A DNA stretch of 64,000 nt from Sialis fuliginosa (taxonomy: Eukaryota; Arthropoda; Insecta; Megaloptera; Sialidae), in assembly GCA_961205875.1 (NCBI GenBank), contig OY540810.1, positions 1,240,001-1,304,000 of the forward strand. The letters are read 5' to 3'. The translations under genes and the position numbers were made by a program. This document shows, piece after piece, positions 351-44,420 of the stretch (positions are counted from its first letter, which is position 1; every line of letters starts with the position of its first letter). The notes under the pieces were generated by a model, which saw nothing but the letters and a program-made list of their open reading frames with translations, did not search any database and had not been told where the DNA came from.

Positions 351-408
351 AGTTTTTTTTTTTTTTTAAGAATTTATTTTATAATTTATATTACTTTTAC
401 GTTTTCAG

Positions 409-12600: not shown

Positions 12601-15600
12601 GGTTACAAACCACTGTCATATACAAGTTAGATATACATTTTATAATAAAAATATATTATTTTATATCGTTTTTAAACTGAAACAGGTGACTGTATTCCTG
12701 AAGCTTGGGTCTGCGATGGCACACACGACTGCAATCGAGGAGAAGACGAAACATCCTGCGATAAGAACAACATGCCGCCACGTTGCACAGACAAACAGTT
12801 CAAGTGTAAAATCGACGGCACTTGCATCGGCATTAACAAAGTATGTGACGGTCGACCGGACTGCCCCGACGGAAGCGACGAAGTCTCCTGCAAACCAGAA
12901 CACAACGAACCAAGTACGTCGAAATAACCGATCTAACGTTCTTTTTATTACAGTCGGGACTCGTTTATTTTAACTCTCGTTTATCGTAAATGCCGACTTT
13001 CGTTTATTGTAAATTTTGTCTCCTCCTTCACCTCCCACCATTCTCGAGTCATGGCTACTTGACCAATCAGCGTTGACATCACAGAACGTATTGCCAACTT
13101 AAGAATAGTAAAAAATGACACTTCCCGATTAGACAAAATTGTCTGCGATAGCTTTTTCATGATTTTGCAATGTCGAATTTGTACTTCTTTGATTGTATAT
13201 CAGTGGCGTAGGAACGGGGGGGGTTTTGGGGTCGAAACCCCCCCCCCCGAAATTTTAAAATATATGAAATTAGTATAACAATTTTGAATTTTTGTGATAA
13301 TAACCCCCCCCCCCCCCGAAATTTTCAATGCTGTTAAAATATGCGAAATAAATATAAAAATTTTGAACCAAATGACCTTTTTTTTTTTTTGATCATATAA
13401 TTCATCAAAAAAAATAATAATTATAATTTTCAATTGTGACCTTTTTTTTTTTAGTCAATAAAAGTCATAATAAACTAAAATTTTTGCTTTTTCAATAAAA
13501 AAAAATTCGCATATTTTTTGGAATATCAAAACCCCCCCCGAAATTTTTTCTTACTACGCCACTGTTGTATATGTTGTTAAAATATCAAAAAATACGAAGA
13601 CAAGAATAAATAAAGGATTTCTTGTATTTGATATTCTATTATACATTTATAACATTTGAATACATCTTCGTGGTGATGTCAATTCCCGCGCCAACGCTGA
13701 TTGGTCAAGGATCTACACATAACTTGGTGTGAGCCCCTCTCGACTTGAAATAAACGCGCGTCATATGATTCAGAAGGTTTAAAATAAATGAGTCCCGACT
13801 GTATATAGCAATTGTTATTATTCTAGACGGTAATCCGGCCACTGTGAGTTGCCAAACGGGCACGTTCCCGTGCGACAGCTTCAGATGTCTGCCTCTGGTA
13901 AAATACTGCGACGGCACCCAAGACTGCCACGACGGGTTCGACGAGACAAACTGCGACAGCCCCCGCATCTACCAAGTGCTGCAAATGGGCGTGGACGAGC
14001 GTAGCGTCAACAGTTCGAGCCTGCTCCTGTACTGGTGGATACCGATACCGCAGAACATCAAGTTCGAGTTCCTTCCGTCGATAAAGAAGGCCGGCGTCGT
14101 CAACGCCCCGTGGAGAAACCACACGTCGTGGATCGAGGAGACCGATTTCAGGTTTAGTAATTTGGAAGCGTTCACGGAATACAACATGACAGTTTATGTG
14201 AGGGTTAAAGGCCGGCCGACCGTTTTCCCGCCTGTTAAGTATTTTAATGCAGTTACCGGAGAAGGAGGTAAAGATTAAATTCAACCTAACCTAACTTTTC
14301 TACAGTTATTGTCGTTTCAGTTCCGAGTGAACCTGAGAATCTAACGGTACGTCAGTGCAATGGGTCGCACGTTGAATTAAAGTGGAGTCCTCCGAAACAG
14401 CCGAATGGAAAAATAATGTACTACACGATAAGTCTGACGCCGCCAATACCGCCAGTGAAATTGCGTCATAACGGGCCTGTTACTATGTACATGGTTACAG
14501 GAAACTTCGAACCGGAACAGAACTATTCATTTTGGGTAAATATTAAATATATTAACGGGAGAGATCCCTTTATATACTTTTTTTTTTTTTTTTCAAGGTC
14601 TCTGCATGGAACAACGCATACGAAAGCAACAATTCTAAAGTAGCCTCAATACAATTCGACGGCGACGCAGATCTCGACTTAATCGAGAACATCTACCTCA
14701 AAGCCGTTACCAACAGATCGGTGACGTTAGAATGGAAATCTGTGAAAACGGCTGAAGGCTACCGCGTAACACCTCACGTCGACATACCTTACCCCGTGCA
14801 CGACGTAGTAACAACGCATACGAACAAAATTACCGGTAAGTAAAAAATTTAACACCCGCAGAAATCAAAACAAAAATTACTTCTTTTTTTTTTCAGTTTC
14901 GAATCTTTCGCCTGGAACGTCGTACATATTCAAAATAAGTGCCTACAAGAAGACGTATAACGGACAAGAAGTCAACTTCAAAGTTAAAACTAGCGGAGAT
15001 CCTTTGCCTTCGTTGGCTAACATGCAGGCGTACTTGGTGCCTGGCGTGGCTACGACCGTCAAACTTAGCTGGGACCATCCTAAAGATCTGCGTAAAGTTC
15101 AGTGGACCTATGGGGTATATTACGCTCTGAATGCTGAAGATCTGTTCAAACGTGAGTGTTAATTTATGTTAATTTGTGTGATTTCAAATGATAATTATTA
15201 CTTTTTCAGAAACAAAAACAACGACAACTAATAACACGGCCGTTGTACTAGACCTTGAACCTTGTGAGAAATACTTATTCGCTGTAGGAATCGTCGGGCC
15301 TTTGGGCTTAGGCCCCCTGAACAGACAGCCCGTGATGATAATGACAAGTGTGAAAGATACTGCACCTCCAAAGAACGTTACAGTATCTACGGACAAACAC
15401 AACGATACTAATATGATTATCGAGTGGTCTCCATCTTGTTCGGCTAGCATTTCCCATACTGGCTACATGGTAAGTTATAAGTTGATAAAATGAATGATAG
15501 ATTGCATTTTAGGTGATTTAGTAGTTTTTTTTTAAGATAACCTGGTTAGGTTGTCATTTTTGACACTTTTAGGTTAAAAAGTGTCAAAAATGACAATTTT

Positions 15601-18938: not shown

Positions 18939-19995
18939 CTACCTGAAATCGAAGCCGTTAGGTGTAATCTTTTGAGAAGCACCTGAAGATATACCGGTTT
19001 TTCTGGGGGTTATTCTTTGATCGTGTGCCTGCTTTCTAGCTGACAGTTTTGTACGTTTATCTTGTCGAAAACCGGCCCAACTCGTCTTTATTATGTCGCT
19101 CATCGGCTCCCCGAATACCAAAAATGGGACGTTATTGATTTCTTCGTATTCGTCGATCTTTTGTTGAAGCTCGACTTCAATTTCGGGTAGTTTTTTCGCA
19201 AGTACCCGTCGTTCTTTTTCTTCTTTCAGTAGCTGACCGCCGCGGTTTTTATAGCGGTCAGGTTTTTCAGAACATTCTTCGAGCTCTAGCATCTTAGCCC
19301 AGAGTTCTTCACGCTTTGCTAACATTTCGAAAATCTGTTTATTTTCTTCGTAGAAATGACGAAGTTTATCAACTTTCATCTCGTGTAATGTGAGTAAATT
19401 TTCGGTGAAGCAGTTTAAATGGAAAACTTTGAATTGTATTCTCTGGTCTTCACCGACTTTGCATTTGTCCCACCATTCGAGAAGTTCGTTTTGTAACTTT
19501 TCTACGTAAAATTAATATTTGCTCTGATTTTACTCTTGCATCTTGATATTTCCTTTCTCAGGGCTTCCAACGTATCCAAACTATACCCAGGGTAATTCTC
19601 TAGAAATTCACTGCGTACTGCTGGGTTCTCTTCGAGCCGTTCCCACAATAAACTCAACTGCTCTCTTAGTTCTGTGACCAACGTCTTTGTTTCATTTAAC
19701 TGAACCTTCAACGAATCGTGCAGCTCTTTTAGCTTCTTCATGTTCTCCGGAGTCACTAAAAATTCCTCGTTGCTGCCTTCGTAAATCTGTCTTTCAAAGT
19801 CTAAACAAGGCTCTATCTTTAACTCGTGCATTATTTTCCTTATGACGTTTCTTTTTCTACTCTCTTCTTCTTCAATTAATATACTCGTATCTTTCAATTC
19901 ATTTATTATGTGGTTTTGTATTGATTCGAAACGAGTATTTATGGTCTCTCTGTCTAAACTGACCATATTCCACAATTCTTCAAAAGTGTCAATGT

Positions 19996-19999
<4 letters not shown>
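18939..19999 (-). pseudogene. PRC1: PRC1/Ase1/MAP65-like fragment, intronless, one frameshift
   Basis: PRC1 (fascetto in flies) bundles antiparallel microtubules in the central spindle. Two - strand frames (19999-19502 and about 19501-18939) give coiled-coil sequence ending in a spectrin-like region with KNRGGQLLKEEK, the family's most conserved microtubule-binding motif, then a short basic tail with ITPRKTG. Several features argue for a degraded retrocopy. It has no introns. The N-terminus is replaced by a 44-base A run (sense strand). Roughly 90 residues appear missing internally relative to vertebrate PRC1. One frame break lies near 19500. The break could be a single missing T in TTTT near 19502, that is, a sequencing error. 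A truncated but expressed gene is the alternative. Confidence 0.75.

Positions 20000-20042
<43 letters not shown>
19999..20042. repeat. Homopolymer T tract, 44 bases
   Basis: A pure T run directly abuts the 5' end of the PRC1-like reading frame, where it reads as A on the sense strand. A retrocopy would carry its poly(A) at the 3' end, so this is not a simple insertion tail. Confidence 0.95.
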
Positions 20043-20043
<1 letters not shown>

Positions 20044-21115
20044 TATAAGGAAACAACATTACAAAAACTAAAATCTGGCCATCCTAATGATAACGTATAA
20101 CGTATTTCAACAATAACTTTTTCTTGTTTGAATGTAACAGCTGAAGTAAAAAATCGTGCGAGGGCTTTTACCAACCTCATTTGACAAAAAAAATCCTATA
20201 CGGAACACACCCATTCAATTTCAGCCATCATGTCTGACTTATCTTCAGTCCAGCCATGTCAATGCATTATTTGTCCTTTATCTCTCCTTGTCTAAGATTT
20301 TATCCATAGATAAGAACACATTTAGATTTTTCATAAAATAATTGGAGCACTAAAACATAACCTAATTTCTTTTATAAAATGTGACTGATAAAATATTAAG
20401 ATTGTGTACAAAGTAAACTGTATGAAATACCTATAACAATACCAAATATGTATTTTTAGAGTGTGGAATGATTAAATTTTATACAAAGTATTTATGAATA
20501 CATATATTTTTTGTCTCTGTTGGCCGAGGGTGCTAGATTTTTTGTTTGTGTTTTTTTAGGTTAAAAATATACATTATAAATGTTCAAAATATTGAGATGT
20601 AATTAGTTCGATAGTTGGATAATGGAATTAAAATCTAATCGAACTGAAACTGTTTGTTTAAAGTTATTATTTTATTAAATCTGGTGTCAAGAAAATATGG
20701 TAGAATTTTGTTATCCACGTTCATTGTCAATATATCTTTCTTACCTATAAAAAAACTATATTTTAAATAAAATTAATGTTGACGATGAACATATTTCAAG
20801 TTGTTCCAACGGCCTCATTGGCCATTAGTCGTAAATTGATTTGTCGTAAATACGTATCTATTATATTATAATGTTGGGATTACTTGTAGGATACTTTTTA
20901 GATCATCACGAATATTTACTATGTCAAATTTCTGTGATAGCTTATAGGTACAGTAACGTAACGTAGGCTCTAGACACTATCGTATTATATTTACCTACCT
21001 GTTTAATTACAATATTTTAAGAAATTTGACAAGTTTATTGTTTTATTTGTATTAAAATAAAATTACAATGTTTTTGAATTGTTTTTTTTTTAATTATATC
21101 CTATAGTAATCATAT
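20043..21115. other. Intergenic, no gene seen
   Basis: It includes the right inverted flank (about 20255-20375) of the PRC1-like fragment. Otherwise it is AT-rich unique-looking sequence with no supported coding region, RNA gene or element boundary. Confidence 0.5.
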
Positions 21116-21119
21116 GGTT

Positions 21120-22190
21120 ATTAAGAATTAAATTCTCTACAATTTCTTCCAGTTACAGCGTCGAAAAGTTTTCGAAAAGTAATTTTTGCAAATTATCTCG
21201 TAAAGTACTGATTTTACATTAAAATGTTAAATGGCAATCTTGTAGAGAATTAAATTCTCTACAATTTCTTCCTTAGGCGTCGTTCTGTACGACCAAAAGT
21301 TTACGAGTTACAGCGCCGAAAAGTTTTTAAAAAGAAGTTTTTACAAATTATTTCCTAAAGAATTGATTTTACATTAAAATATTAAATGGCAATCTTGTAG
21401 AGAATTAAATTCTCTACAATTTTTTCCTTAGGTGTCGTTCTGTACGACCAATAGTTTACGAGTTACAGCGCCGAAAAGTTTTTAAAAAGTAGTTTTTGCA
21501 AATTATCTCGTAAAGTACTGATTTTACATTAAAATGTTAAATGACAATCTTGTAGAGAATTAAATTCTCTACTATTTCTTCCTTAGGCGTCGTTCTGTAC
21601 GACCAATAGTTAACGAGTTACAGCACCGAAAAGTTTTCAAAAAGTAGTTTTTACAAATTATCTCGTAAAATATTGATTTTACATTAAAATGTTAAATGAC
21701 AATCTTGTAGAGAATTAAATCCTCTACAATTTCTTCCTTAGGCGTCGTTCTGTACGACCAATAGTTTACGAGTTACAGCGCCGAAAAGTTTTCAAAAAGT
21801 AGTTTTTACAAATTATCTCGTAAAATATTGATTTTACATTAAAATGTTAAATGACAATCTTGTAGAGAATTAAATTCTCTACAATTTCTTCCTTAGGCGT
21901 CGTTCTGCACGACCAATAGTTTACGAGTTACAGCGCCGAAAAGTTTTCAAAAAGTAGTTTTTGCAAATTATCTCGTAAAGTATTGATTTTACATTAAAAT
22001 GTTAAATGACAATCTTACAGAGAATTAAATTCTCTACTATTTCTTCCTTAGGCGTCGTTCTGTACGACCAATAGTTTACGAGTTACATCGCCGAAAAGTT
22101 TTTAAAAAGTAGTTTTTGCAAATTATCTCGTAAAGTACTGACTTTATATTAAAATGTTAAATGACAATCTTGTAGAGAAGAATTAAACTC
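21120..22190. repeat. Tandem array of a 155-bp unit, about seven copies
   Basis: The phrase TGTAGAGAATTAAATTCTCT recurs at about 21241, 21396, 21551, 21706, 21861, 22016 and 22171 (the last two with small changes), a constant step of 155 bases. A shortened first unit starts near 21120. Each unit has the palindrome GTAGAGAATTAAATTCTCTAC, then a GGCGTCGTTCTGTACGACCA block, then AGTTACAGCGCCGAAAAG. Extra copies lie at 23370-23560. Confidence 0.93.
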
Positions 22191-22916
22191 TAAAATTTCT
22201 TCCACACAACAATGACGCCGTGTATATACAATAATTTTATAAATAAAAGGTAAGTAATTTTCAATAGTACCTAGTGAGTTCGCAAATATGCCTGAAATAC
22301 CTGTGTAGATAAACAAGTATATTATAAAATTAAATCGCACTATATTAGATACAATTTATATATTTTAAATTCATTCGCGTTTTAAATTTCATTTCATTTT
22401 TTTCAGAAGTCATTCCAACTAAGTCCAATTTTTTTTGTTGAATTCGAGTCCTTATCGTATGTATTGATTCCAAGTTTGCGCATAAAAAGTTGTACTTGAA
22501 TCGATAACAGTAAAAATAAACTGCCCTGGTCGGCACAAGACATCATTATACAGAAAAAATTACATAAGTTAACATTTACTGCTAGAAATTGAATATAATT
22601 AACTATATTACATTAATTGTTTTTGTTGATGTTCGAGATATATTTTAATTCTATTCTGTGGTTTTATTTCAAACGTTTTTATTACAAATCGTTATAATAG
22701 TTTTCCTGTTTAAAAAAATGTTGTTTTGTCAATGGTTTCTTATTTGTTTGATATTTCAACAGTTCAACACGTTTTATATATTTAATTGACAGTTGTAACA
22801 AAAAATGCTTTTAATATCATAGGTAACTAGATTATTCAGATATATTAATAAAATTAATTTTAAATAAAAACTAAAATTATTATTTTTTGGTCAATTTAAA
22901 AGATACAAAAAAAAGA
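22190..22916. other. Intergenic, no gene seen
   Basis: AT-rich sequence between the 155-bp array and the copy of the window-start repeat. No supported feature. Confidence 0.5.
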
Positions 22917-26633: not shown

Positions 26634-29600
26634 CTGTCAAACGAAACAATAGATAATAACGTTCATCTTTCTCCGATACATCTTGAAAACGTGCCGCTAG
26701 AAGATTCACTTAAAAAATTCAGACTTACCGTGGTTCATAACGTCGTTAATGATGGCCCTGGCCAGGCCGAGGCGCACGTTGGCGACGGGGTCCCAGCACA
26801 GGTCGAGCAGGTGCGGCATCAGCTCGCGCGAGATCCTCTCCGGGGAGAGCGCCCGGTGCGACACGAGCCTGGCGCACGCGGTGACGAACGCCTGCCGCCG
26901 CGTCCACTTCTTCGAGTGCGCGAACTGCTGCGCCAGGTCGGCCAGGAAACGCGACGTGTCGCTCGTGTCCGGCTGGATGTGTTGGATGATGCCCACTACC
27001 TGGAATATCCGACAATTATTACATATACTGTTCATAAAACATGTAACGTTTGTTTGGTTGCAACTGACAATTTAAATAATTAAGGGGAACATACATAGAG
27101 ATAATATAACACAGAGAAAGTGGGAGCGTTCACGTCTGACCAAAAAACGGAAAAATGACACTGTTTTTTGAAAATAAAATTCCCTGACTCCCTGGCCACT
27201 GATTCAAAATTTCCTGACTTTTCAAAAAGTGGACACCCTGAATGAGCTTTGATTGGTTGATTCATGGAATTTCTGGTGGAATGTACCAGAAATTCAAATA
27301 ATGTCATTTTTTAAGCGTGTAAGAAAGTGAGAAAAAAGTAACTAGAAAGAGATAGAAATTAACGATCAGGCTAACCAAAGAACTTTTATGTTCACTTTAT
27401 CTGCCAGAACACTCTTTCTAGTTACTTCTTTCTCACTTCCTTACACGCTTAAAAAATTATATTCTTTTAATTTCTGGTACATTCCACCAGAAATTCCATA
27501 AATCAACCAATCAATCAGTCGTAACAATACGTAGGGGACGGAGGTCCAAAAATTCTAGAAAAAAACGATATGTTGTCTAGGTACAAATAGTTAAAATATT
27601 AATATCTCAAATGTAACTAAACTGTGTATTGTACAGTTATTTGCTATAGGAACTGCAAACATAGCGAGTTTAGTCGTAGATTACTTTCCACAGTAATAAA
27701 CGCCACGGCCGGTATCGAAACAAACGCAGCGTGGAGCTGGGACTGTGGCGCGAACATTAACAGCAAATTTAATAGAAAAAACTCACAAGCATGATGGCGT
27801 TGTTTCTGACCGCAGCTATCTTATCATCAAGCAGCTGCAAGGCGATCGGGGAGATGTAATAACTGACGTCTTTGGGTGACCATAATGTTACAGACTCCTC
27901 TAACTGTTCGGCCAGCACTGCGCGGAACCTCCAGTTCAGCTCGGCATCATTCACTAAGAACTCGTTCAGCCGCGGTAAGTACTGGTCCCTCTTCTGTGTA
28001 TTTATTAACTGAAACGTTACGAAAAATAAATAATAATAACGGTAAGAAAAAAAACAAAAAAACGCTTACCCTAAAAAATTTTGCCATGTATTTTAAAATT
28101 CCAATCCGCACTTCGTCTAAATCTTTAATAAAATCATCAAATATTGGTGTTAAGTGTTCAGTCGCTAATTGTTCACCGAGAATGGCCGCTATCTTGTGCA
28201 ACGATACCGCAACAGTTCGGCGAACCTGTAACAAATGTAAACAGTGCTTACTAGACGGCTCTAATAGGAATTTTCTGGAATTTATCACATTTTCTTTGTC
28301 GGTATAAAACAAATTTATAAATTTGCAGTTTATTTTTTTTTTAAACCCATTGTTGCCTATTTTTTGATTGTTAAAGTACAATTTGAAGAATTAGGTTAGA
28401 AAATTTGAATACAAATGTAAATAATGCTTACTAGACGGCTCTAATAGGAATTTTCTGGAATTTATCACAAACAAATGAGAATTCTTTATAAATTTGCAGT
28501 TTAATTTTTTAAATCCATTGTTACCTATTTTTTGATTGTTTACAATTCAAAGAATTAGGTTAGAAAATGTTGTAACAAACATAAATAATGCTTACTAAAT
28601 AGTTTTAATAGGAATGTTCCAGAGTTTTTCACTTTTTCTTTGTATCGGTTTAAAACAAGTGAGAATTCTTTAAAAAGCAGTTTATTTTTTTTTTTTTAAT
28701 CCATTGATGTCTATGTTTCTTTTGATTGTTAACAATTTGAAGAATTAGGTTAGAAAAATTTGTAAGAAACGTAAATAATGCTTACTAGATGGCTCTAATA
28801 GGAATTTTCTAGAATTTATTACTTTTTCTTTGTGTCGGTTTAAAACAAGTGAGAATTTTTTTACAAATTTGTTTATTTTTTTTTAAATCCATTGTTACAA
28901 TTCAAAAAATAAGGTTAAAAAATGTTGTAATAAACATAAATAATGCTTACTAAATAGCTTTCATTGGAATGTTCCAGAGTTTTTCACTTTTTCTTTGTAT
29001 CAGTTTAAAACAAGTGAGAATTCTTTAAAAGGCAGTTTATTTATTTTTTAAAATCCATTGCTGGCTATGTTTCTTTTGATTGTTAACAATTTGAAGAATT
29101 AGGTTAGAAAAATGTGTAAGAAACATAAATAATGTTTAATAGACAGCTCTAATAAGAATGTTGACTTTTTAATTGTATTGGTTTAAAACAAGATAATTCT
29201 TTATAAATTTGCAGTTTATTTTTTTAAAATCCATTGTTGTCTACATTTCAATTGTTTACAATTCAAAGAATTAGGTTAGGAAAATTTTCAAAGAAATATT
29301 TGAAGAACATATTATATCTTGTATGTATTCAAGGTAGTTTAAAGTAAATAATTTATGCAAAGTAAGTTTAAATAACAATAAATATCCTAACCTTCCACTG
29401 GAAGTTGCCGGCCAGATTGCAGTATGTATCTCGCAGCATTTCCCAGTTGTCTCTGCCGAGTGTGAGGGCTACGGCGGGGAAGCTGAAGGCACAATGGTAA
29501 CAGAGATCCGCTTCAATGCTGTCCGACAGGACAGAGCTAGTCATCGAAACGTAATGGTCCAGCAGACATTGGGGCACTATGTGTTGTATGGGTATCTCGC

Positions 29601-32600
29601 GTTTCGTGCTCATGCTCTTTCTTTTAGGTTCTGAAAATTAAATATACATGGTCAGGTTATACAAAAAATAAAACGCTGGTTAGGTTATGTAACAAATTTA
29701 TAAGTGTTTTTTGAAAATAAAACTCCCTGACCACTAGAGTCTTGGGACAAGAAGTGATCGAGGGGCTCCCAGAATGTGCAAAAAAATTTGAAGACTTTTT
29801 TGCTCGTCAACTTAAATTTTTTTTCTTCTTCACTGACTTTCCAGAATTTATAATAAATTCTCTGACTCCAAAATTTTTTTTTATAAATTCCCTGACTGTT
29901 TCTTTTCGACATTTTCTAATATAAAAAATAATTTTGACTTATAAAATTATTTAAAAAAAAAGTATTCCCATGTCCTCTAAAATAAAAATCGTCACAAAAG
30001 GGTTAAAGTTAATGTAATTATGGTATAAAATTGTTATAGATTTAAAAATTGAGACTTTATTAATTAAATGTATAAGTAATCTAATTTTAGCTTCAAAATG
30101 CCTTTTTTAGATTTGATCGACAATTTCTTTACACAAATTTATTCGGATATCTAAAAAAATAAAAATATCAACTCACCGTTAACATTCTGTATATCGAACT
30201 GGTCGTACACGTTAAACGCGTTGGTAATATTTTTGTTTATACTATTATAAACAAACACCGGTTCGTCTAATTGATTCTGATCACAGCCGTTTGAGTTTTG
30301 TGTGTCGGCACGTACTATATCGTCGTCCAGCGGCATGTCCGGACTGATATACCAATACTGGTACGTATTGTATTTATCTAGGCACTCGTCTCCTTCCCTC
30401 GCACTACTACTACAACCTACTATATCACTAACAACGTTATCTCTATCACAATTCTCTTCCGCAGTCTTCTCATCGACGAACATCAAGTCTAACGACTTCA
30501 TTATCGAAGACAGCGACATGTTATCTGTCTTTTCCGTACACCCCATATCCATTTCCGATTTCGTAGAGTTCACCGCGGGGTTTTGATCGGTTTCTTCTTC
30601 TTTCTTGTCTAAATTGTTTATATCTTGTTGTTCTTCGCTATTGTTGTGGTGGTAGTTTACAGTCGAGTTGTTTCCGGAACTGCTTTTTCTGTTGTACATG
30701 TCGAAGTATATTTGATCGTCGTTTTCGTCGTCGTCGTCATCTACTAGGTTGTCCTTCGATCTACTTTTAAGGTCGTCTATTTTCTCACATTGTCTTTTTT
30801 TAAATTCGTATAGTTTTTGATATGACGTTGGTTCCCGAATGTCGTGAGTTAAGGCAGGTGAATTTATTCTGGAATAAGAGAAATAATTATTAATTTCATG
30901 AATACAATATTGTACACCCCAAGCAAGCAAAATCTCATCTTTTTTACGTATGTATAAAATTATCATTATACATATATAAAATTTCTTTAGTAATCCATTT
31001 AAAAGTTTACATTTTCTGAAAGAGAACGTTACAGTCTTCGTATTTACTTAATTTAATATCGATTGGTTTTAATTTTCTGTTATAAAAATATAAACAAAGT
31101 TCAATTTGTCATAAAATTGAAATTTTTAAGTGATAGCAACACACTACAGGTCGCAAATCATAATAAACTAACATAAATCCTTTTGAATTCGCTTCATCTA
31201 TTATCAGAATAGAATCCTATTAAAATTCAGCCAAATCGGATAACTAGATGTAAGAAAATTTTCAGTTTACTTAAAAGTACCATATTTTGCCCACAGGTCA
31301 ATTTTTATTTTTAAATGTGTTTTTTAGCCGTTTTTTTTCCACAATACAAAGTAGCCTATGCCCTTCTTCAGGATGCAAGCTATCTCTTTGCCAAATTTCA
31401 TCAAGATCGGTTCAGCAGTTTAGCTTAACACACTTGAATGAGCATAATAGATAAAATAGCAAAACTATGCAATGAAAATGTTTCCTGGCTAGGTATATAT
31501 ATAATATGAATTTATGTACTGTAAAAACAAAAACAAAAATTGTACTTGAATTTGAATGATAAATATGAAAAAAGCAGTGAACTATGAATATTTATTGTAA
31601 CGCTATCTATTATATGTAAATAATTGTAAAACAAATTATTGGGGCTCACTCTGTTGATAATAAATAAATATTATGTGTATATCAGGTACTCACTTAAACT
31701 CATATCCGTCCGAATCCACCAGCACGAGCATTCTGTTATTGTCGTAGGCGAGTTGCGTGATCTTAGGCTCGGCAAACGTCGAAATGAACGGCCCGAGCAC
31801 CTGGAACGCGGACGTGCGTACCCAGCGCGACTCGTCGTCCAGCAGCGGCAGAAACGCGTCCGCCAGCTGCGTGCGACGCTGCTCCTGCGAACAGACGCAC
31901 GACACCGACATTACCGTCTCGGCGCACGCCTTGCGCACGTACCATATGTCGTCCGAGCATAACTCGAGGAAGCGAGGCAACTGAAAGAAACAACGCGCTT
32001 GTTAAAACGGAATTCAAAAATAGAAAAATAAGTCAACACTTACCAGAATGTATTCGAAAGCTTCGGGACCGACAGCGCAGAACTCTGCTATACTAGAAGC
32101 GCACATTTTTCTTATCGAAAGAGTGGACGAACGGCACAATTCAGAGAACCGTTGGAGAAACAATCTCTCTGTGGCTTCCTGTCCAAGTAACGATACCATT
32201 TTTGACATAAGCTGAAACAACCATCAACAAAAAAACATCGTTTAGATAAAATCAAAAACATTAATTCACATAACCTAAAAATGTCACTGCGGACGTTATT
32301 ATATTGGCGAAATGATGCATCTTTACGCTCATCAAAGCTGGCTGTGATATGAATCATGACAACATTTCACAACCAGTTGAAGAGAGTAACAACGCAAACT
32401 AACACACCTGAAAATGATAAATATATTACAGGTGGATTAAAAAAAAAAATGGGTGTGCCTATGTCGGGATGCACAGTCGAGGGATTGACGTGAATACGTC
32501 GAACTGGGGTTAAATAAAACTCACTAATTTCTTATGATTTGTATGAACATAAAAATATTACACACAAAATTAATTTTTTTTTATAATATGAAGTTTTTCA

Positions 32601-35600
32601 ATCATTAAAACTGGTTAAATATTTTGATTTTTAGTTATACCTCGTAGATCTAATTAAGATCTATAATTTGAGACAAAAACTAGCACAGTAGCTGCTCTAA
32701 GTGTCGAGATATACTGATTTTAAATTTACGCTAACGCGCAAACCGATTTCTGCACGTTACATCAAGTTTCTGAAATAACTGTAGATGGGGGGAGGGGTCA
32801 AAAGTTAACATTAGATATAGAAAATCACGTAAATAATACATCAAATAAACCAATAAATGAATCTTCAGTTTGTCTTCGGAATGTTGAATTCACCATCCGT
32901 TATCGCTCATCAAAGCTGGCTGTGATATGATTCTACAAATAAACATTCCACATCCAGCTGACGAGCGACACCGAGACGAAACGCTTCTTCAGAACACGCA
33001 GACAGTAACGTGTAACCCAACTCGTCAAAATGGCTGTGATATGTGTCTATAATAAACATTTCGCACCCATTTAGACGACTGGGGTACAGTTAAATTGCTG
33101 TAGAACACTAAAAAGTTAACATATATCATGGTAACAAACACACAAATTAGTTACAGATAGGTCAAATACATAACCCAAATCCGATGCGGTTCTCTTGAAG
33201 TTTGAACTTCGACCAAGCTCATCAAAGTGGCTGTGATACGAATACAACATTACATTTCACATCCAGTTTGATGAGATGGGCAAAGCAATAGCAGCAGTCT
33301 GACCAACACGATGATGTTAAGTTCTTGCGTAGTCACTTTTGCATTAATAATAATTATAGGCGATATATTATGTTATAATTATCGATGATAGCCAATAACA
33401 TTTTGCTCATCAAAGCTGGCTGTGATAGAAATAAAAAATACCTACGACAGCCAGATCGGATGGCAAAATATTACCGAGTTAACATAAACTATTTGTTGTC
33501 GTTTTAAACATGGTGCACCATTGCAGATGTATCAGACCGCTCCATGAAAGACAAGGTAGTGAGACGAGTAGGGAAGACATCTCACTACCCATGTCTTTCA
33601 CAAAGAAACCCGAAATTGTGTACACAAATATTATTAAATTGTTAACAATTACAAAAACAATATAAATTATTTATTATATATTATTATAAAACAATATGTG
33701 GTTTTTTTAAGAACCTTAAGTATCTATAGGATGACCACTCTTACTTGGGAAGAAATTTCCCAATTTTCCAGATGAATTTTTACGTTTTCCCATGTTTAGG
33801 TGAAGTTAGGATAGGTTATATTTAAAAAAAAAAACGAAAAATTCGTAGTTTTCACTTTTTATAAGTGAAATAAATTACCTGAATCTTTCACGAAATTAAT
33901 TATGTATAAATAAAAATATTATCATCAATAACAAATCACAAAATAAATTAATATTAACATTGTTTAAATAAAAACCATTGATGTGTTCAACAATCGAACC
34001 AAAGAACAACATGAAGTGCGTCGCACTTCTGATTGGTTAGAGAACTAAAAATAGATCACGTGATACAACAGAATTGTTTGTTGACAATAGAACTTTTTTG
34101 AAAATTTTACACGTTTTCTTCTAAACTTTATTCATTTGCGGAAATTTCTATGAAATAAACGGAATTATTTTTACATTGTTACAAGTGGCGACCCTGATTA
34201 ATGAATAAATACACATAATTTTTTGTCAACAATGAAGTCGAGTTAAAAAACAATTGTTGACAAAATTTGCTGATACCATTGTGCAAAAATATAAAAACAT
34301 GTAACTTACATTAATAGCATTAGGAACAATATCATCTTTAGAATCAGCATGCGTCAATTGGAGCACCATCGGACAGACACGCTTCTCTACGTCGTAGTTA
34401 GAGACCAGGTTATGTTTCATCAGTATCAGCAATGCGACTTGTGCCGTCTTTCGTACCTGGGGGTCTGCGTCGGCAAGGCAGAGCGCTACAAGCGGTAACA
34501 GCTGTTCCGAGGCAACTGACGCTACGGAAGGGACGCGCGAGTCCGCACAGACCATTGCCATGTGAGGTATTTGATCTAGGATTTCAGAACGGACTACCGA
34601 TTCTGAAAAAACAAAAAAAAAACTACTATAAAACTCAAATTCAACCCTTTGGACGCGAAAATTGAAAAAAGTCGATTTGATTTTTTTTCTTTCCGTGCAA
34701 AAATTGTAACTTTAATTAATATTTTAGCTATACAGAAAGTTATGTGCAAAGAATTAAAATTTAATTCACACGTTTTGACATCGACTAACAGGGAAATCTG
34801 TAGGGGTGACACATCACTTTTTAGGCGTTTTAACAAACCTTTAATGATGATGTCAGTTTTTATAATTCTCCTATAAACAAATTAGTTTTTTAGTTGAAAG
34901 CTTGTTTCACTTTTACCCCATTTTTTTGGTGTTTCATATTTACCCCGCTCGACCCTACTTACTTTTTTTCGAAAATAAATATGAAAAGTTACATATCGTT
35001 GTAAAGTAGAGTAAAAAAAAACACGTTCAAATATGCTATAGCCAACTTAGTGGCCCATAAGAAAAACTACATTTAGGGCTAGTAACTTGAAAACTAAAAG
35101 TGACATAAAAATTCTAAATACACCAATCAATTCTACACAAAAAGTGCTTTCAGAAACCGCAAACGAAAAATTGCCTATCTACTTTGACAAAAAAGTTACA
35201 GCCATTTAAAGAATTTCCTAATTTTCAGATTTTTGGGTATACCGCCTAAACCAAGCTTGTCCACATCCGGCCCTCGAGGATCCTTGGTTTATTTTATTTT
35301 TCCTAATTTAACTCTTTATTTATTCAATAAAATTAGAAATTGAAATTGACGAGATCAAAAAAAAAAGTCGTCAGTTTTATATTCTGGCCTGCGGCCCTTA
35401 GTAAATTAAATTAAATAAAATTTCTGCTATGCGGCCCAGAAGGTTCAAAAGGTTGGACAAATGGACACCTATGGCCACATAGAATTATTAATATTTATTG
35501 ATGTAGCAATACCCACCCCTTCTTTACAAATAATACATCTCATTTAACCGAATCTGTACCGGCCGCGGGTTGGCCAGCCCTGATTTAGGAAATCCCCATG

Positions 35601-38600
35601 CGTTCCACGCCTACCTTGGATATAACCCAGAAGCCGAGAACCCACCACAAGATAAACCAGGGCGCGAAAACCAAAGCACCCACAAACCCACAATTCACGT
35701 GCATTTGTTGTAAATTGCAAATCCAATAATATGCAAATCAACAGGCTACAGGCAACAACAAACGGTACTGTCCCCTCCCTCCGTCCCTACCCCTCCCCCC
35801 CCTTCCACCAGAACAACTTGTGGCGACAATAATAATAATATCAACAAATTCACTCAATGCAATCTAGATAATCAACCAGCGACGTATTTACAAAACACCG
35901 GGAATAATAATCAAATTAAAACTAGTTACACATCAAATATATAACACCTTCTCACCCTCTCTGCCCCCCCCCCTTCCCCCACTCCAATCACTAACCGCCA
36001 TTACACACAGTTTAATATCTATACTCTATTTCGGTAAAATGCACGATTCGTACCGTCAAAACCTCGGCAACCACTGCATTCTTAAGGGGGTATTCTGGTC
36101 TAGAAATTTGAAAAAATCAATTTTTTTTTTGCATATTTTCAAAGTTTAGACCCTTAAGAATATGTCCTTAAATGGATTTTTCAAAATTCGAATTATTTTC
36201 GGAGATACAGTGGATTTTGTGACGTAGCATCTAAGCCGGCCGAGTGGAACGAATCACACAATAAACGCGTTTTTCTCGAAACTACTTTTTTTGAAGTGGT
36301 TGACATGATATCTCAAGTTGTACCCCACCGATTCCTTTGAAATTTGGTGGAAATCTTTTTTATATATCTCTCTATCGCGTCTGCCTTGGATTTTAAAAAA
36401 TTTCAATTTGGAGTATTTTTAAAAAATTCGAAAAGATCAAAAAAAAAGGTAAAAAAAAATTTTTTTTTCATGTCGACGCCATTTTGTGATTTTTTTTTTT
36501 TGGTTAAGGTCAATACGATTTACAAATTTTTTTGTTTCAGATCACTACAAGGGCTGGAATCATGTCAACCAGGGTGCACCGTTTTTTTTGTAGCCCCCAC
36601 TTGTCGAATTTTTGATTATTTTTTTACAATTTTTTTTTTATGTTCTTAAAATGTCAATAAATATCATACCAAAAAATGGATACTAAAAATGTTTTTCATT
36701 TTTTTTTTAATGTTAGTTTGAAAAATGCCTAATATTTTGGCTTCTAGACCAGAATACCCCCTTAAATTAAGGGGGCAGACCCAGTTAGAATTTTGAAAAA
36801 ATTCACGTTTTTTTTGCATTTTCTCAAAGTAGAATATTTCAAAAGTATTCTCTGAAAATTTCAGACAAATGTCCTGTCCATAGACGATTCAGTGTAAGTT
36901 CCAAAATAAATTTTTTATCTGCATGCAAATCGTACTCAAAAACTTTAAACGCGTTTTTCTCGAAACCATGTTTGTGATCACTGTAACTTGAGAACGGCTT
37001 TGCGGATCGGTTTGAAATTTTTCTCACTTATTCTATACATAATTGTCCTCCGGATGAACGAAGGATTTTTTTTGACGATTATTACTTTTTTATAGCCGAA
37101 AATGCGAGTGAAATTTTAGTCGCATAAAGAATTTTGACTTTCAATATCCGCCATTATGTGAAAATTCAAAATTTTTTAAATCCCTTCGATCATCCGGAGC
37201 ATTATGTCATTAGCTAATGATCCCTTATGTTTTTTTTTTATTTCAGATGATCTAGTGACGAGCAGCAGTGATCACGGCAAAACACTTTTTTTAAATAAAT
37301 GCTGCCAAATGTACCTCATAAAATCCATAGCATTTACATTACTATACATTTGTTACCACTGCTTTAAAATATCGAGAAATTTCATTACAATTCTACACCT
37401 AGTAGATAGCGTTAGCTGGGAGCTTATTTGCTTTTGCATTCAAGCAAATTCTTTATAATACGTAATAGGGTCTATTTTTAATGGTAGTCCATTTCTGAAT
37501 ATTAATCTATATACATTTAACTGTCTTACAGCGTGATTTGATGACCATCGGCCAATAGGTGTCAAAATGGTGGACATTTAAACTAATTATTAGTATAATT
37601 TATTTATTAATTATTATATTATCATAGCAACTGCTTTACATTGATTTCAAATTTGACGATTCTTTTGTGTCGTAGTACTTATCATTAGCAAGTGTCCATC
37701 ACTGCGTGCTCATTACTGGTTTTGCTTACTTACTGGAGAAAATACATAAACAAAATAAAAGGCTATAATTTAAAAAACAAACTATCTTTGCGGACTTAAA
37801 AAATTGATAAAATAAAAAGTTACTTGTTTTATTAGTAACATGAGTTCATGAAAATTACAAAAAAACCAGGCCCATTAGTCTAAAAATTCGAAAACTTGCT
37901 CTTATACCGGCCATAACTGGTGCCTTTACCTTACTCTCTTTCAGCATATTTATTTAATTAATTATAATAATTGAAAAAGAAAAAAATAATTATATCATAA
38001 AATTAGCTACAGATTTTTAAACAGTTCAAATTAAAATCAAAACAATCTGAGAGAAAAAACACGTCCGATCGAGTGTGCGATGATGGGGGAAGGGGGGGGG
38101 GGTATTCCGGTACCGGCTTCCGGCGTGCTGCCGACAACCAGCACGTGGCCGACCGGAAACGGGTCCCGCAGCCAATAAACATGGACTGAAATAGAACTTG
38201 TTCCGTTTCAACATGTAACCATGTTTTACTACTATTAAAGGGCACCTTCCCCGATTATATGTACTTTTTGTTCAGCGGTTGTAAACATTTTTACCTTCTC
38301 GTATCTCGTTTTTAAATTGAAACAGCTATTTTATAAAACTGGCTTAAGGGGGCAGACCCAGTTAGAATTATGAAAAAAATCCATTTTTTGCATTTTCTCA
38401 AAGTAGAATATTTCAAAAGTATTCTCTGAAAATTTCAGACAAATGTCCTGTCCATAGACCATTCAGTGTAAGTTCCAAAATAAATTTTTTATCTGCATGC
38501 AAATCGTACTCAAAACTTTAAATGCGTTTTTCTCGAAACCATGTTTGCGATCACTGTAACTTAAGAACGGCTTTGCCGATTGGTTTGAAATTTTTCTCAC

Positions 38601-39274
38601 TTATTCTATACATGATGAACAAAAGATTTTTTTTGGACGATTATTATTTTTTTTCTAGCCGAAAATGCGAATGAAATTTTAGTCAAATAAAGAACTTTGA
38701 CTTTCAATATCTGCCATTTTGTGAAAATTCAAAATTTTTCAAATCCTTTCGTTCATCCGGAGCATTATGTCGTTATTATAAATAATTATATAAACCTGCG
38801 AAAAAAATTCCCAACCAAAAACTGTGAACAACGAGCTTTGATTGGTTGATTCATGAAATTTCTGATGGAATGTACCAGAAATTTAAAGAATATCATTTTT
38901 TAAGTATGTAAGGAAGTGAGAAAGAGAGTAAATTAGTGTTCTGGCAGAAACGCTTAACATGAAGTGAACATAAAAGTTCTTTGGTTAGCCTGGTCACATT
39001 CTTTTAATTTCTGGTGGTACATTCCACCAGAAATTCCATGAATCAACCAATCAAAGCTCGTTGTTCCGTTTTTTGGTCAGACGTGAACGCTCCCAATGAC
39101 TTCCCCTTTAGTGTTCTCACACTATTAGTTTGAGAACCGCTGTAAGTGGTATATAATTTACCTGTATCGTGTGCAACTGTGTATATCACGTTCATAAGAG
39201 CTGGAATATCCGGAGCCAGGGCGTTTGGCGGTGTCTCCCGGATTACCTGGACCATCACTCGACCTACCATTTGT
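26497..39274 (-). CDS. PPP4R1: Protein phosphatase 4 regulatory subunit 1, ten exons, 5' incomplete
   Basis: HEAT-repeat scaffold that binds the PP4 catalytic subunit. The exons on the - strand, 5' to 3', are 39274-39162, 34602-34310, 32211-32044, 31980-31694, 30868-30177, 29630-29392, 28225-28070, 28008-27787, 26999-26729 and 26633-26497. All junctions are GT-AG and in phase, giving 858 residues and TAG at 26497-26499. HEAT repeats fill exons 1-4, then an acidic low-complexity insert (exon 5), then C-terminal HEAT repeats (QWKVRRTVA, DLDEVRIGILK, WTRRQAFV). This two-block layout is that of PPP4R1 (human 950 residues). About 70-90 N-terminal residues are missing, so the first exon or exons lie further right or were not recognisable. 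The introns host the miR-71/2/13 cluster and many MITEs. Confidence 0.93.
26729..26999 (-). CDS. PPP4R1: PPP4R1 exon: C-terminal HEAT repeats
   Basis: The acceptor is ATTCCAG and the donor is GTAAGT. It encodes KKWTRRQAFVTACARL, LMPHLLDLCWDPVANVRLGL and RAIINDVMNH. It is strikingly GC-rich for this window. Phase is 0 in and 1 out. Confidence 0.92.
27243..27515. mobile_element. Palindromic MITE in a PPP4R1 intron, relative at 38821-39065
   Basis: Left CTTTGATTGGTTGATTCATG and ATTTCTGGTGGAATGTACCA recur inverted at the right end, with a second internal inverted block (AAGTGAGAAA / TTTCTCACTT). The copy at 38821-39065 has the same ends. Sequence beyond the left end (GGGAGCGTTCACGTCTGACC near 27123) also recurs inverted near 39095, so the complete element may be longer. 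Confidence 0.78.
27787..28008 (-). CDS. PPP4R1: PPP4R1 exon: HEAT repeats
   Basis: The acceptor is CGTTTCAG and the donor is GTGAGT. It encodes QYLPRLNEFLVNDAELNWRF, EQLEESVTLWSPKDV and IALQLLDDKIAAVRNNA. Phase is 0 in and 0 out. Confidence 0.92.
28070..28225 (-). CDS. PPP4R1: PPP4R1 exon: HEAT repeat with DLDEVRIGILK
   Basis: The acceptor is TTACAG and the donor is GTAAGC. It encodes VRRTVAVSLHKIAAILGEQL and IKDLDEVRIGILKYMAKFF, closely matching the conserved PPP4R1 core. The intron to the next exon is only 61 bases. Confidence 0.93.
28230..29290. repeat. Degenerate tandem repeat of about 160-195 bp in a PPP4R1 intron
   Basis: Six units each contain AATAATGCTTACTAGACGGC (or a variant), TTTTCTTTGTATCGGTTTAA and GAATTAGGTTAGAAAA. 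Spacing varies because of indels. The first unit lies right at the splice acceptor of the 28070-28225 exon. Confidence 0.82.
29392..29630 (-). CDS. PPP4R1: PPP4R1 exon: VPQCLLDHYVSM region
   Basis: The acceptor is TTTTCAG and the donor is GTTAGG, a weak but valid GT site. It encodes IVPQCLLDHYVSMTSSV, FSFPAVALTLGRDNWEMLR and NFQWK. Phase is 1 in and 0 out. It is strongly alike to the family's VPQALLDQY and ALTLGR motifs. Confidence 0.92.
30177..30868 (-). CDS. PPP4R1: PPP4R1 exon: acidic low-complexity linker
   Basis: The acceptor is TATTCCAG and the donor is GTGAGT. It has about 230 residues, mostly disordered: DDDDDENDD, SSSGNNST and DKKEEETDQ, with YQYWYISPDMPLDDDI near the end, which resembles the FHFW-P-EIDLDI segment of vertebrate PPP4R1. 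It links the N- and C-terminal HEAT blocks. Phase is 2 in and 1 out. Confidence 0.88.
31694..31980 (-). CDS. PPP4R1: PPP4R1 exon: HEAT repeats
   Basis: The acceptor is TTTCAG and the donor is GTGAGT. It encodes LPRFLELCSDDIWYVRKACA and DDESRWVRTSAFQVLGPFIS, matching the PPP4R1 signature very closely. Phase is 0 in and 2 out. The upstream intron is 63 bases. Confidence 0.94.
32044..32211 (-). CDS. PPP4R1: PPP4R1 exon: HEAT repeats
   Basis: The acceptor is GTTTCAG and the donor is GTAAGT. It encodes LMSKMVSLLGQEATERLFLQ and LSIRKMCASSIAEFCAVG. It is 168 bases, phase 0 in and 0 out. It is the exon immediately downstream of the microRNA-bearing intron. Confidence 0.93.
32320..32392 (-). ncRNA. 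mir-2: pre-miR-2 (third copy, last in the cluster)
   Basis: The mature 3' arm is 32349-32327 on the - strand (23 nt, begins UAUCACAGCCAGC, ends GAUGAGC), identical as far as I recall to fly miR-2a. The opposite arm (about 32366-32389) reads CUCUUCAACUGGUUGUGAAA and pairs well. The separation from the other hairpins (about 550 bases) is the largest in the cluster. Confidence 0.93.
32898..32972 (-). ncRNA. mir-2: pre-miR-2 (second copy)
   Basis: The mature 3' arm is 32927-32905 on the - strand with the same 23 bases as the other miR-2 copies. The 5' arm near 32943-32966 reads GCUCGUCAGCUGGAUGUGGA and forms an imperfect stem with it. Confidence 0.93.
33013..33085 (-). ncRNA. mir-13b: pre-miR-13b
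   Basis: The mature 3' arm is 33041-33020 on the - strand (22 nt): UAUCACAGCCAUUUUGACGA plus two more bases, matching fly miR-13b. The 5' arm near 33057-33083 (GUCGUCUAAAUGGGUGCGAA) pairs with it. Confidence 0.94.
33211..33283 (-). ncRNA. pre-miR-13a-like (miR-2 family)
   Basis: The mature 3' arm is 33238-33217 on the - strand, 22 nt, beginning UAUCACAGCCACUUUGAUGA. It has the family 5' end but differs from both miR-2 (CAGC) and miR-13b (CAUU) at positions 11 onward. By position it corresponds to the miR-13a or miR-2c slot in other insects. The 5' arm near 33253-33280 includes CUCAUCAAACUGGAUGUGAA. Confidence 0.9.
33398..33474 (-). ncRNA. mir-2: pre-miR-2 (first copy)
   Basis: The mature 3' arm is 33427-33405 on the - strand and is identical to the other two miR-2 copies. 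The 5' arm (about 33445-33470) reads UUGCCAUCCGAUCUGGCUGU; the lower stem UUUUGC / GCAAAA is well paired. Confidence 0.93.
33535..33610 (-). ncRNA. mir-71: pre-miR-71
   Basis: The mature 5' arm is 33600-33578 on the - strand (begins UGAAAGACAUGGGUAGUGAG). The 3' arm at 33564-33544 begins UCUCACUACCUUGUCUUUCA, also as in known miR-71. The two arms form a near-complete duplex with a short loop. It is the first hairpin of the cluster. Confidence 0.96.
34310..34602 (-). CDS. PPP4R1: PPP4R1 exon: HEAT repeats
   Basis: The acceptor is TTTTTCAG and the donor is GTAAGT. It encodes VVRSEILDQIPHMAMVCADS, LCLADADPQVRKTAQVALL and DVEKRVCPMVLQLTHADSKD. Phase is 1 in and 0 out. It lies immediately upstream of the miRNA-bearing intron. 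Confidence 0.94.
35256..35600. repeat. hAT-like repeat fragments (CGGCCC ... GGGCCGC)
   Basis: CTTGTCCACATCCGGCCCTC near 35265 and GGTTCAAAAGGTTGGACAAA near 35443 are partly inverse. A further fragment at 35560-35585 (GGCCGCGGGTTGGCCAGCCC) has a counterpart at 61490-61512. These resemble the ends of insect hAT MITEs. Boundaries and target duplications were not found. Confidence 0.45.
36086..36761. mobile_element. TTAA-flanked MITE, GGGGGTATTCTGGTCTAGAA termini
   Basis: It is 676 bp. The left end GGGGGTATTCTGGTCTAGAA has its exact inverse at the right end. TTAA flanks both sides (36082-36085, 36762-36765). It lies in the PPP4R1 intron. The internal block CGCGTTTTTCTCGAAAC is shared with the neighbouring GGGGGCAGACC family, suggesting common ancestry. 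Confidence 0.88.
36771..37235. mobile_element. GGGGGCAGACCCAG family element, left part only
   Basis: TTAA (36767-36770) is followed by GGGGGCAGACCCAGTTAGAA. The body matches 38348-38780 and 51556-52178. The only right end seen in the window is at 52160-52178 (CCCCAACTGGGTCTGCCTCC then TTAA), so this copy is truncated near 37235. Confidence 0.78.
37490..37935. mobile_element. CACCAGT-family MITE, reverse-oriented copy
   Basis: It shares TGTCTTACAGCGTGATTTGA, AATAGGTGTCAAAATGGTGG and GCCATAACTGGTGCC with copies at 46888-47405, 50578-51062, 54985-55515 and 58737-59303. It lies in the PPP4R1 intron at 34603-39161. Confidence 0.7.
38348..38780. mobile_element. GGGGGCAGACCCAG family element, second partial copy
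   Basis: TTAA at 38344-38347 precedes GGGGGCAGACCCAGTTAGAA. It is close to 36771-37200 by eye. It ends near CGGAGCATTATGTCGTTAT without the right terminal repeat. Confidence 0.78.
38821..39065. mobile_element. Palindromic MITE, relative of 27243-27515
   Basis: The ends AACAACGAGCTTTGATTGG and the inverse CCAATCAAAGCTCGTTGTT match over the terminal 50 bases or so. It lies just 3' of the first PPP4R1 exon found here (- strand sense). Confidence 0.82.
39162..39274 (-). CDS. PPP4R1: PPP4R1 first exon found in the window
   Basis: The acceptor is TTACAG and the donor is GTAAAT. It encodes QMVGRVMVQVIRETPPNALA and ALMNVIYTVAHDT. QMV matches the family's RQMVARSLLD start of the HEAT region. Because it begins with an acceptor, at least one 5' exon must exist to the right. 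Confidence 0.82.
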
Positions 39275-41029: not shown

Positions 41030-42040
41030 TATTTGATTTATAAAATTTTCTGATACGAAACTTTCTTATACTATTGAAAATAATAGAAAATTATTGCATT
41101 GTATAAATATGATTTTTTTTTATTTTTTGCTTATTTTGACGAATTATTTTTAGATTTATAAAATTACTACGAAACTTTCTTATACTATTCAAAATAATAG
41201 AAAATTATTGTATTGTATAAATATGATTTTTTTTTTATTTTTTGCTTATTTTGGCGAATTATTTTTATAGATTTATAAAATGACTACGAAACTTTCTTAT
41301 ACTGTTCAAAATAAGAGAAAATTATTGCATTGTATAAATATGATTTTTTTTTAATTTTGCGTATTTTGGCGAATTATTTTTTATAGATTTATCAAAATTA
41401 CTACGAAACTTTCTTATACTATTCAAAATAATAGAAAATTATTTCGTTGTAGAAATATGATTTTTTTTAAATTTTGCGTATTTTGGCGAATTATTTTTTA
41501 TAGATTTATCAAAATTACTACGAAACTTTCTTATACTATTCAAAATAATAGAAAATTATTGCATTGTATAAATATGATTTTTTTTATTTTTTGTTTTTTT
41601 CGGCTTATTATTTTTATAGATTTATCAAAATTACTACGAAACTTTCTTATACTATAAAATAATAGAAAATTATTGTATTGTATAAATATGATTTTTTTTA
41701 TTTTTTGCTTATTTTGGCGAATTATTTTTTATAGATTTATAAAAAAACTTTCTTATACTATTCAAAATAAGAGAAAATTATTTCGTTATATAAATATGAT
41801 TTTTTTTATTTTTTGCTTATTTTGGCGAATTATTTTTATAGAATTATAAAATTACTACGAAACTTTCTTATACTATTCAAAATAAGAGAAAATTATTGTA
41901 TTATATAAATATGATTTTTTTTATTTTTTGTCTTTTTCGGCTTATTATTTTTATAGATTTATAAAATTTCTGACGTCATTACTACGAAACTTTCTTATAC
42001 TATTCAAAATACACCAAATAATAGAAACTTATTTCATTAT
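41030..42040. repeat. Tandem array of about 113-119 bp, about nine copies
   Basis: TACGAAACTTTCTTATACTA recurs about every 115 bases from about 41055 to 41985, each copy followed by AATAGAAAATTATTGCATTG and ATAAATATGATTTTTTTTAT. Small indels vary the period. No open frame is conserved. Confidence 0.88.
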
Positions 42041-42959: not shown

Positions 42960-43830
42960 AGGAAGGATTGTCTCTGATTATTATTATATCTCGTAATGAA
43001 TTTATCTTTTTGGTCATATTTTCAACAAGAATTGAGAACATAGTAAAAAAACTCGAAGAAATAAAAAGTCGAGAAGAAATGGGTTAAATAACAACTGCAC
43101 TAATAAATTGTGAAAGTTGCATCGATTGAGGGGGAAGTTTGTCTCTGATTATTATTATATCTTGTATTGAATTTATCTTTTCGGTCATATTTTCAACAAG
43201 AATTGAGAACATGGCCAAAAAATTCGAAGAAATAAAAAGTCGAGAAGAAATGGGTTAAATAACAACTGCACTAATAAATTGTGAAAGTTGCATCGATTGC
43301 GGGGGAGTTTGTCTCTGATTATTATTATATCTTGTATTGAATTTATCTTTTTAGTCATAATATTTTCAACAAGAATTGAGAACATGGCCAAAAAATTCGA
43401 AGAAATAAAAAGTCGGGAAGAAATGGGTTAAATAACAACTGCACTAATAAATTGTGAAAGTTGCATCGATTGCGGGGGAGTTTGTCTCTGATTATTATTA
43501 TATCTTGTATTGAATTTATCTTTTCGGTCATAATATTTTCAACAAGAATTGAGAACATGGCCAAAAAATTCGAAGAAATAAAAATTCGAGAAGAAATGGG
43601 TTAAATAACAACTGCACTAATAAATTGTGAAAGTTGCATCGATTGCGGGGGAGTTTGTCTCTGATTATTATTATATCTTGTATTGAATTTATCTTTTCGG
43701 TCATAATATTTTCAACAAGAATTGAGAACATGGCCAAAAAATTCGAAGAAATAAAAATTCGAGAAGAAATGGGTTAAATAACAACTGCACTAATAAATTG
43801 TGAAAGTTGCATCGATTGCGGGGGAGTTTG
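42960..43830. repeat. Tandem array of a 173-bp unit, about five copies
   Basis: Units repeat CAACAAGAATTGAGAACATG, GAAGAAATGGGTTAAATAAC, AGTTGCATCGATTGCGGGGG and TTGTCTCTGATTATTATTAT. The last three spacings are 173 bases each and an earlier one is 170. The array ends abruptly at 43831, where a GC-rich GAGA-containing segment begins. Short - strand frames here are repeated copies of each other, not genes. Confidence 0.92.
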
Positions 43831-44420
43831 TCTCCGCGCGAGGTGACCGCAAGGAGTGTCCGTCGCGACGTCGGCACCGGAGAGAAAGAGAGACAGATAG
43901 AGAGAGAGAGAGAGGCCGTCACAACACACCGTTCTAACGCAACCGGCATGCTATATATGACAATGTCGATCGGGCGGTTGTATAGTTGCAATCATAGACA
44001 TAGAGAATGGACAGTGCATTCTGTATTAACACAATGGTGTAACATCTGTTCAAAAAAGTGAGAGAGAGATACAGTGTAGTTTGGAATATATCTATCTCTT
44101 TTTCTATGAATCTGATTGGTAGCTTACTACAGATTTTCGTGCAATAAGTTTTTTATTAGAAAAGTAAATAATATAAACAATAAACATACTATAATGGTTC
44201 ATATTTCATCGAGGAAATTAAAAAAAAAAAACATTTGCAAAATTATGAACGGATATTCCGGGAAAATAACATTTTCGCTATCAAAAATATTAAATATATA
44301 TTAATAAAAAATAGTTTTAAATCAATTCCCATGTGGTTGCTACAAAATGATGCACTTACAAGATTTACTTAACAAAATTTTAATTTTTATTAGGTTACAT
44401 TACGAAGCTACGAAAAAGGA
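43831..44420. repeat. GC/GAGA-rich segment joined to one arm of a dispersed inverted repeat
   Basis: About 43990-44400 recurs inverted at about 53275-53735: CATAGACATAGAGAATGGAC, ACAATGGTGTAACATCTGTT, TTTCATCGAGGAAATT and CCGGAATATCCGTTCATAAT (or inverse). The first 150 bases are GC-rich with (GA)n. Confidence 0.75.

Follow-up and report, generated by a model that had tools for sequence, protein, structure and literature searches.

A six-member mir-71/mir-2/mir-13 cluster nested in a PPP4R1 intron of the megalopteran Sialis fuliginosa

In a 64,000-nucleotide (nt) stretch of the Sialis fuliginosa genome (assembly GCA_961205875.1, contig OY540810.1, forward-strand positions 1,240,001 to 1,304,000; hereafter ‘the window’, whose own numbering we use throughout), six microRNA hairpins, mir-71, mir-2, mir-13a, mir-13b, mir-2 and mir-2, lie within one intron of a PPP4R1-type gene and on its coding strand. 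We place the probability that these six microRNAs are correctly identified, are nested in this host and are made by ordinary intronic biogenesis at about 0.85. The original prediction, made from the letters of the sequence, had proposed six hairpins with recognisable arms in a 2.1 kb PPP4R1 intron, sense to the host; Rfam models, folds and exact mature arms agree on the hairpins, and the intron measures 2,098 nt. The nesting is real, conserved and already known, and is thus a good new example and not a discovery. Published work cited here by PMC accession is represented by excerpts, and statements about it apply to those excerpts.

Six hairpins on the minus strand

Five matches in the whole window exceed the Rfam gathering scores (50 bits for mir-71, RF00832; 45.5 bits for MIR-2/MIR-13, RF00047), and all five lie on the minus strand (Table 1). 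The MIR-2/MIR-13 covariance model places four of its five hairpins above 45.5 bits; the remaining copy, at 33401-33467(-), was found only by a permissive Rfam scan of positions 30000-36000. This copy alone is accepted on its arm and fold and not on the Rfam cut-off: its fold z-score is the strongest among the six, and it shares its mature 23-mer with the other two mir-2 copies. The permissive scan returned 33 matches, two of them off the six hairpins; both, a mir-87 match at 32396-32442(-) (23.7 versus 49 bits) and a mir-44 match at 32609-32690(+) (19.7 versus 54 bits), were rejected as chance.

The folds point to the same six places. For each hairpin, none of 200 dinucleotide shuffles folded as well as the native sequence. 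The intron was scanned in 80-nt stretches at steps of 6, and z-scores were obtained for the 22 places of lowest energy, both strands included. On the minus strand, six of these places fell below -4 and the other six tested scored -2.39 or weaker, so that none of the 22 places tested held a further minus-strand hairpin. On the plus strand, six places fell below -3, all of them mirror images of the six hairpins. One mirror, at 33010-33089(+), has a slightly better energy than its minus-strand counterpart (-32.2 versus -31.3), but the mirrors score lower in Rfam (49.4 versus 70.9 bits for mir-71), and we rejected the plus strand as the main strand.

The mature arms published for Bombyx, Daphnia and western corn rootworm occur exactly on the minus strand and are absent from the plus strand. 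All 24 letters of miR-71-5p are present, the miR-2 core is exact at 33406-33425, 32906-32925 and 32328-32347, and the UAUCACAGCC seed region sits on the 3′ arm of a stable hairpin in each of the five mir-2/mir-13 members. Allowing up to three mismatches, the miR-2 23-mer arm matches three times in the window and not once in 100 shuffles.

We also searched the genome (392 Mb in 20 contigs). The miR-2 23-mer, with up to three mismatches, has three matches genome-wide, all in the cluster, and a second pattern gave the same three; the mir-13 arms, being one base shorter, are out of reach of both patterns. The mir-71 model found one locus and its plus-strand mirror (60 of 36,342 first-look candidates scored), with matches in none of 14 control genomes. 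The mir-2 model recovered the four hairpins that exceed the gathering score, together with one mirror (60 of 98,947 candidates scored), and one of 14 control genomes gave a match, below the cut-off. The latter search missed the weak copy at 33401, so weak copies elsewhere in the genome are possible. Among four contigs inspected, three start with TTAGG-type repeats and the fourth begins with N; TTAGG is the common arthropod telomere repeat.

The PPP4R1 host and its surroundings

The host model comprises nine minus-strand exons between 39274 and 26729; every splice border is GT-AG, and the joined exons give an open frame of 813 amino acids. The cluster intron interrupts the protein after ...DDIVPNAIN and before LMSKMV..., with mir-71 lying 703 nt from the donor and the last hairpin 111 nt from the downstream exon. 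Assignment to the PPP4R1 type, which the prediction had also named, draws on three sources: HEAT repeats recognised by Pfam, an approximate human PPP4R1 guide sequence, and the closest solved structures, those of PP2A A scaffolds (top E value 9.7e-16; the 22 PDB matches listed include no PPP4R1 chain). The guide matches eight of the nine exons and both halves of the protein (one exon weakly, at E 0.15), with 38-56% identity over the aligned stretches. The exon directly upstream of the cluster intron also has Cnd1 and HEAT matches, both below the Pfam cut-offs. A 287-residue N-terminal host query gave four matches in the genome, all at four known exons. A C-terminal piece with a stop near 26,500 was read by eye, and its acceptor is not set. 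A further guide match by tblastn, at 19848-19979(+) with E 0.93, was rejected as chance.

Several points weigh against this reading of host and cluster. First, the guide sequence is approximate, and one of the nine exons, encoding the acidic insert, is unmatched by it. Second, a first exon of the host was not found in 85 kb (positions 39001-64000 and 60 kb beyond), where the search gave a known exon and chance hits or repeat; the ordinal position of the cluster intron and the site of the host promoter are therefore not fixed. Third, one of the six hairpins (33401-33467) falls under the Rfam cut-off. Finally, according to the oyster paper, most animals studied have mir-2 between genes, and in oyster only 21 of 76 intragenic microRNA-host pairs are strongly co-expressed (PMC4138081).

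Table 1 Positions in the window of the cluster, its host exons and a candidate promoter region
Feature	Position	Strand	Basis
mir-71 hairpin	33538-33606	-	RF00832 70.9 bits; fold z -7.5; 5p arm 33577-33600 and 3p arm 33543-33564 exact
mir-2 hairpin, first copy	33401-33467	-	RF00047 29.7 bits, below gathering score of 45.5; z -9.4; 3p arm start 33427
mir-13a hairpin	33213-33278	-	RF00047 62.9 bits; z -5.8; 3p arm 33216-33238 identical to dvi-mir-13a
mir-13b hairpin	33016-33082	-	RF00047 49.2 bits; z -5.3; 3p arm 33020-33041 identical to dvi-mir-13b
mir-2 hairpin, second copy	32901-32968	-	RF00047 48.4 bits; z -5.4; 23-mer 32905-32927
mir-2 hairpin, third copy	32323-32387	-	RF00047 56.4 bits; z -5.2; 23-mer 32327-32349
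Cluster intron	32212-34309	-	GT-AG; phase 0; 2,098 nt
Motif group (CACGTG, MEF2-like, CCAAT, palindrome)	34014-34062	-	Upstream of mir-71; candidate own promoter, lead only
PPP4R1, most upstream exon found	39162-39274	-	Frame and splice sites; weak match to approximate human guide (E 0.15)
PPP4R1, exon directly upstream of cluster intron	34310-34602	-	Open spliced frame; 44% identity to approximate human PPP4R1 guide
PPP4R1, exon directly downstream of cluster intron	32044-32211	-	Spliced frame and approximate human guide
PPP4R1, HEAT-repeat exon	31694-31980	-	Pfam HEAT 6.3e-10, above cut-off; frame and approximate human guide
PPP4R1, acidic insert exon	30868-30177	-	Frame and splice sites only; unmatched by guide
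PPP4R1, further exons	29630-29392, 28225-28070, 28008-27787, 26999-26729	-	Frame; matched by approximate human guide

The surroundings of the host contain other genes and repeats. A ILTPIGRLSSNHAVRQLNVYRLIF-like coding stretch recurs several times in window positions 39001-64000 and in L010-L015; this dispersed repeat looked like the PPP4R1 exon being sought. The repeated element returned by the 85-kb search resembles LTPIGRL. Long tandem arrays occupy 21151-22203 (unit of 155 nt), 28227-29060 (about 165-190 nt), 41054-41968 (117 nt) and 42968-43834 (173 nt), the second of them inside a PPP4R1 intron and adjoining the exon at 28070-28225. Beyond the PPP4R1 3′ end, on the same strand, positions 18939-20083(-) encode a MAP65/ASE1 family protein of the PRC1 type (Pfam E 9.7e-51 for the frame 18939-19511). 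Large receptor exons lie at 385-17125(+), with LDL-receptor class A and B repeats by Pfam in the frame 1653-3317 and, by eye from the list of open reading frames, Vps10- and fibronectin-like stretches; this is perhaps a sortilin-related receptor gene. Broken frames at 5565-6259(+) resemble a Tc1/mariner-type transposase (also by eye from that list), and near-identical opposed open frames at 10865-11158(-) and 11654-11938(+) are perhaps the arms of one inverted mobile element.

Transcription of the cluster

Intronic microRNAs are cropped from nascent RNA by Microprocessor and then pass to Dicer-1 and Ago1, and the six microRNAs described here would follow this ordinary route. Because host and hairpins share a strand, shared transcription is possible, a view that the oyster expression data support (PMC4138081), and the PPP4R1 pre-mRNA would probably contribute microRNA RNA. 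A promoter within the cluster intron, upstream of mir-71, may well contribute too, as the 703 nt of intron before mir-71 leave room for one, as in C. elegans. In that nematode, the intronic promoters of mir-71 and mir-2 drive GFP in patterns that either depart from the host's or coincide with it in part only, and the authors allow for extra output from the ppfr-1 transcript (PMC2835999). Both sources acting together is the arrangement we favour, tentatively and at slightly under even odds. Co-transcription with the host, as first suggested for this cluster, is plausible but unproved. On a regulatory tie between the two, which is likewise unproved, the evidence points both ways.

The PPP4R1 promoter could instead drive all six microRNAs by itself, in which case levels of the PP4 scaffold and of miR-2/miR-71 would move together. 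The single intron, the common strand and the short distance between the last hairpin and the downstream exon fit such an arrangement, as do two expression studies: oyster mir-2 tracks its PPP4R1 host, with the largest of six r values at 0.93 (PMC4138081), and members of the corn rootworm cluster co-vary over six life stages (PMC9170749). We nonetheless regard sole control by the host promoter as rather unlikely, given the C. elegans reporter patterns and the failure of a deletion of the initial ppfr-1 exons to reproduce the effect of a mir-71 deletion in an AWC neuron assay (PMC3410857). Clustered mir-2 paralogues of Bombyx also accumulate unequally, although this could have a post-transcriptional origin as well.

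At the other extreme, the cluster could be an independent gene, driven by a promoter of its own within the 703 nt that precede mir-71 and merely sheltered by the PPP4R1 intron. Beyond the C. elegans precedent, this arrangement could draw on a group of motifs some 430-460 nt upstream of mir-71, which we take to be CACGTG, MEF2-like and CCAAT elements. These three motifs occurred together in none of 2,000 shuffles, but the set was picked after inspection and the result is therefore no test. Moreover, CACGTG alone appeared in 132 of 2,000 shuffles, an equally long palindrome arm appeared in 54 of 200, and the CpG observed/expected ratio of 1.41 at 34000-34199 is exceeded by a value of 1.52 at 32800-32999, where no start is proposed. 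Full independence from the host thus strikes us as improbable.

Intronic microRNAs elsewhere sometimes act on the pathways of their hosts, but a feedback loop in which these microRNAs repress their own host mRNA is very improbable, since no miR-2 or miR-71 seed site (TGTGAT, TCTTTCA or TAGTGAGA) was found on the coding strand in the 3.5 kb from 26500, after the host stop codon, a weak result that comes without a background count and with the 3′ end not placed. More generally, the six microRNAs need not regulate anything linked to PP4, and the known functions of miR-2 and miR-71 are unchanged by the present finding. What the window adds is a set of exact coordinates with which to ask about a shared host-microRNA transcript.

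Comparison with known clusters

Along the minus strand the hairpins run mir-71, mir-2, two mir-13 and two mir-2, the same six-member order that forms the scaffold of four arthropods (PMC9170749), which bears out the earlier description of the cluster as complete. The scaffold varies between species: the silkworm has a gap exceeding 15 kb, and the honey bee carries a single mir-2 copy in reversed orientation (PMC9170749). The western corn rootworm cluster shares the order and has mature mir-71 (3p), mir-2 and mir-13a/b identical to those of the window; the passages describing it give no host gene (PMC9170749). Papers on snail, spider and Daphnia, in the parts considered, name no host for the cluster; a table in the snail paper lists mir-71 and mir-2 copies as intronic.

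The implied novelty of the nesting does not hold, as a similar arrangement was published for the honey bee in 2007 (PMC2394756). In that insect, mir-71, mir-13a and three mir-2 copies lie in intron 3 of the Ser/Thr phosphatase gene GB15727, which has been lost from Drosophila (PMC2394756) and which we infer to be PPP4R1. The bee differs from Sialis in its antisense mir-2; in addition, mir-13b is missing from the microRNAs given in the excerpt, where the name PPP4R1 does not occur either. None of the literature matches listed, which are not exhaustive, ties PPP4R1 by name to the cluster in an insect; this is a matter of naming.

Outside the insects, the Pacific oyster carries six mir-2 copies within a PPP4R1 intron (PMC4138081). 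It shares with Sialis the host and the presence of several mir-2 copies; it differs in being a mollusc, in that the excerpt leaves mir-71 unmentioned, and in that expression data exist there. In C. elegans, an orthologous host, ppfr-1, holds both microRNA families on its sense strand (PMC2835999, PMC3410857), but with a single mir-2, with mir-71 and mir-2 in two different introns, and with own promoters identified by GFP reporters, that of mir-2 in earlier work cited there (PMC2835999). By contrast, Drosophila retains an intronic mir-2 family in other hosts, spitz harbouring the mir-2 cluster and CG7033 harbouring mir-13 (PMC4138081); mir-71 has been lost there, and two clusters descend from the original mir-2 cluster (PMC3763532).

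The coincidence of host loss and mir-71 loss in Drosophila is a lead. Because nematode, mollusc, honey bee (with its host inferred) and the present genome share a host, whereas in Drosophila, which lacks that host, mir-71 is gone and mir-2 is split and moved, PPP4R1 could be the ancestral cradle of mir-71/mir-2 that holds the cluster together, a proposal we put forward as speculative and on balance doubtful. If it were true generally, loss of the host would predict breakage of the cluster, and the nesting would be under selection and not a relic. More broadly, a location of mir-2 in PPP4R1 was put forward as possibly ancestral in the oyster study (PMC4138081). The Sialis cluster, which lies intact on a 40 Mb contig and exemplifies a nesting common to nematode, mollusc and insects, supports such a protostome-ancestral reading.

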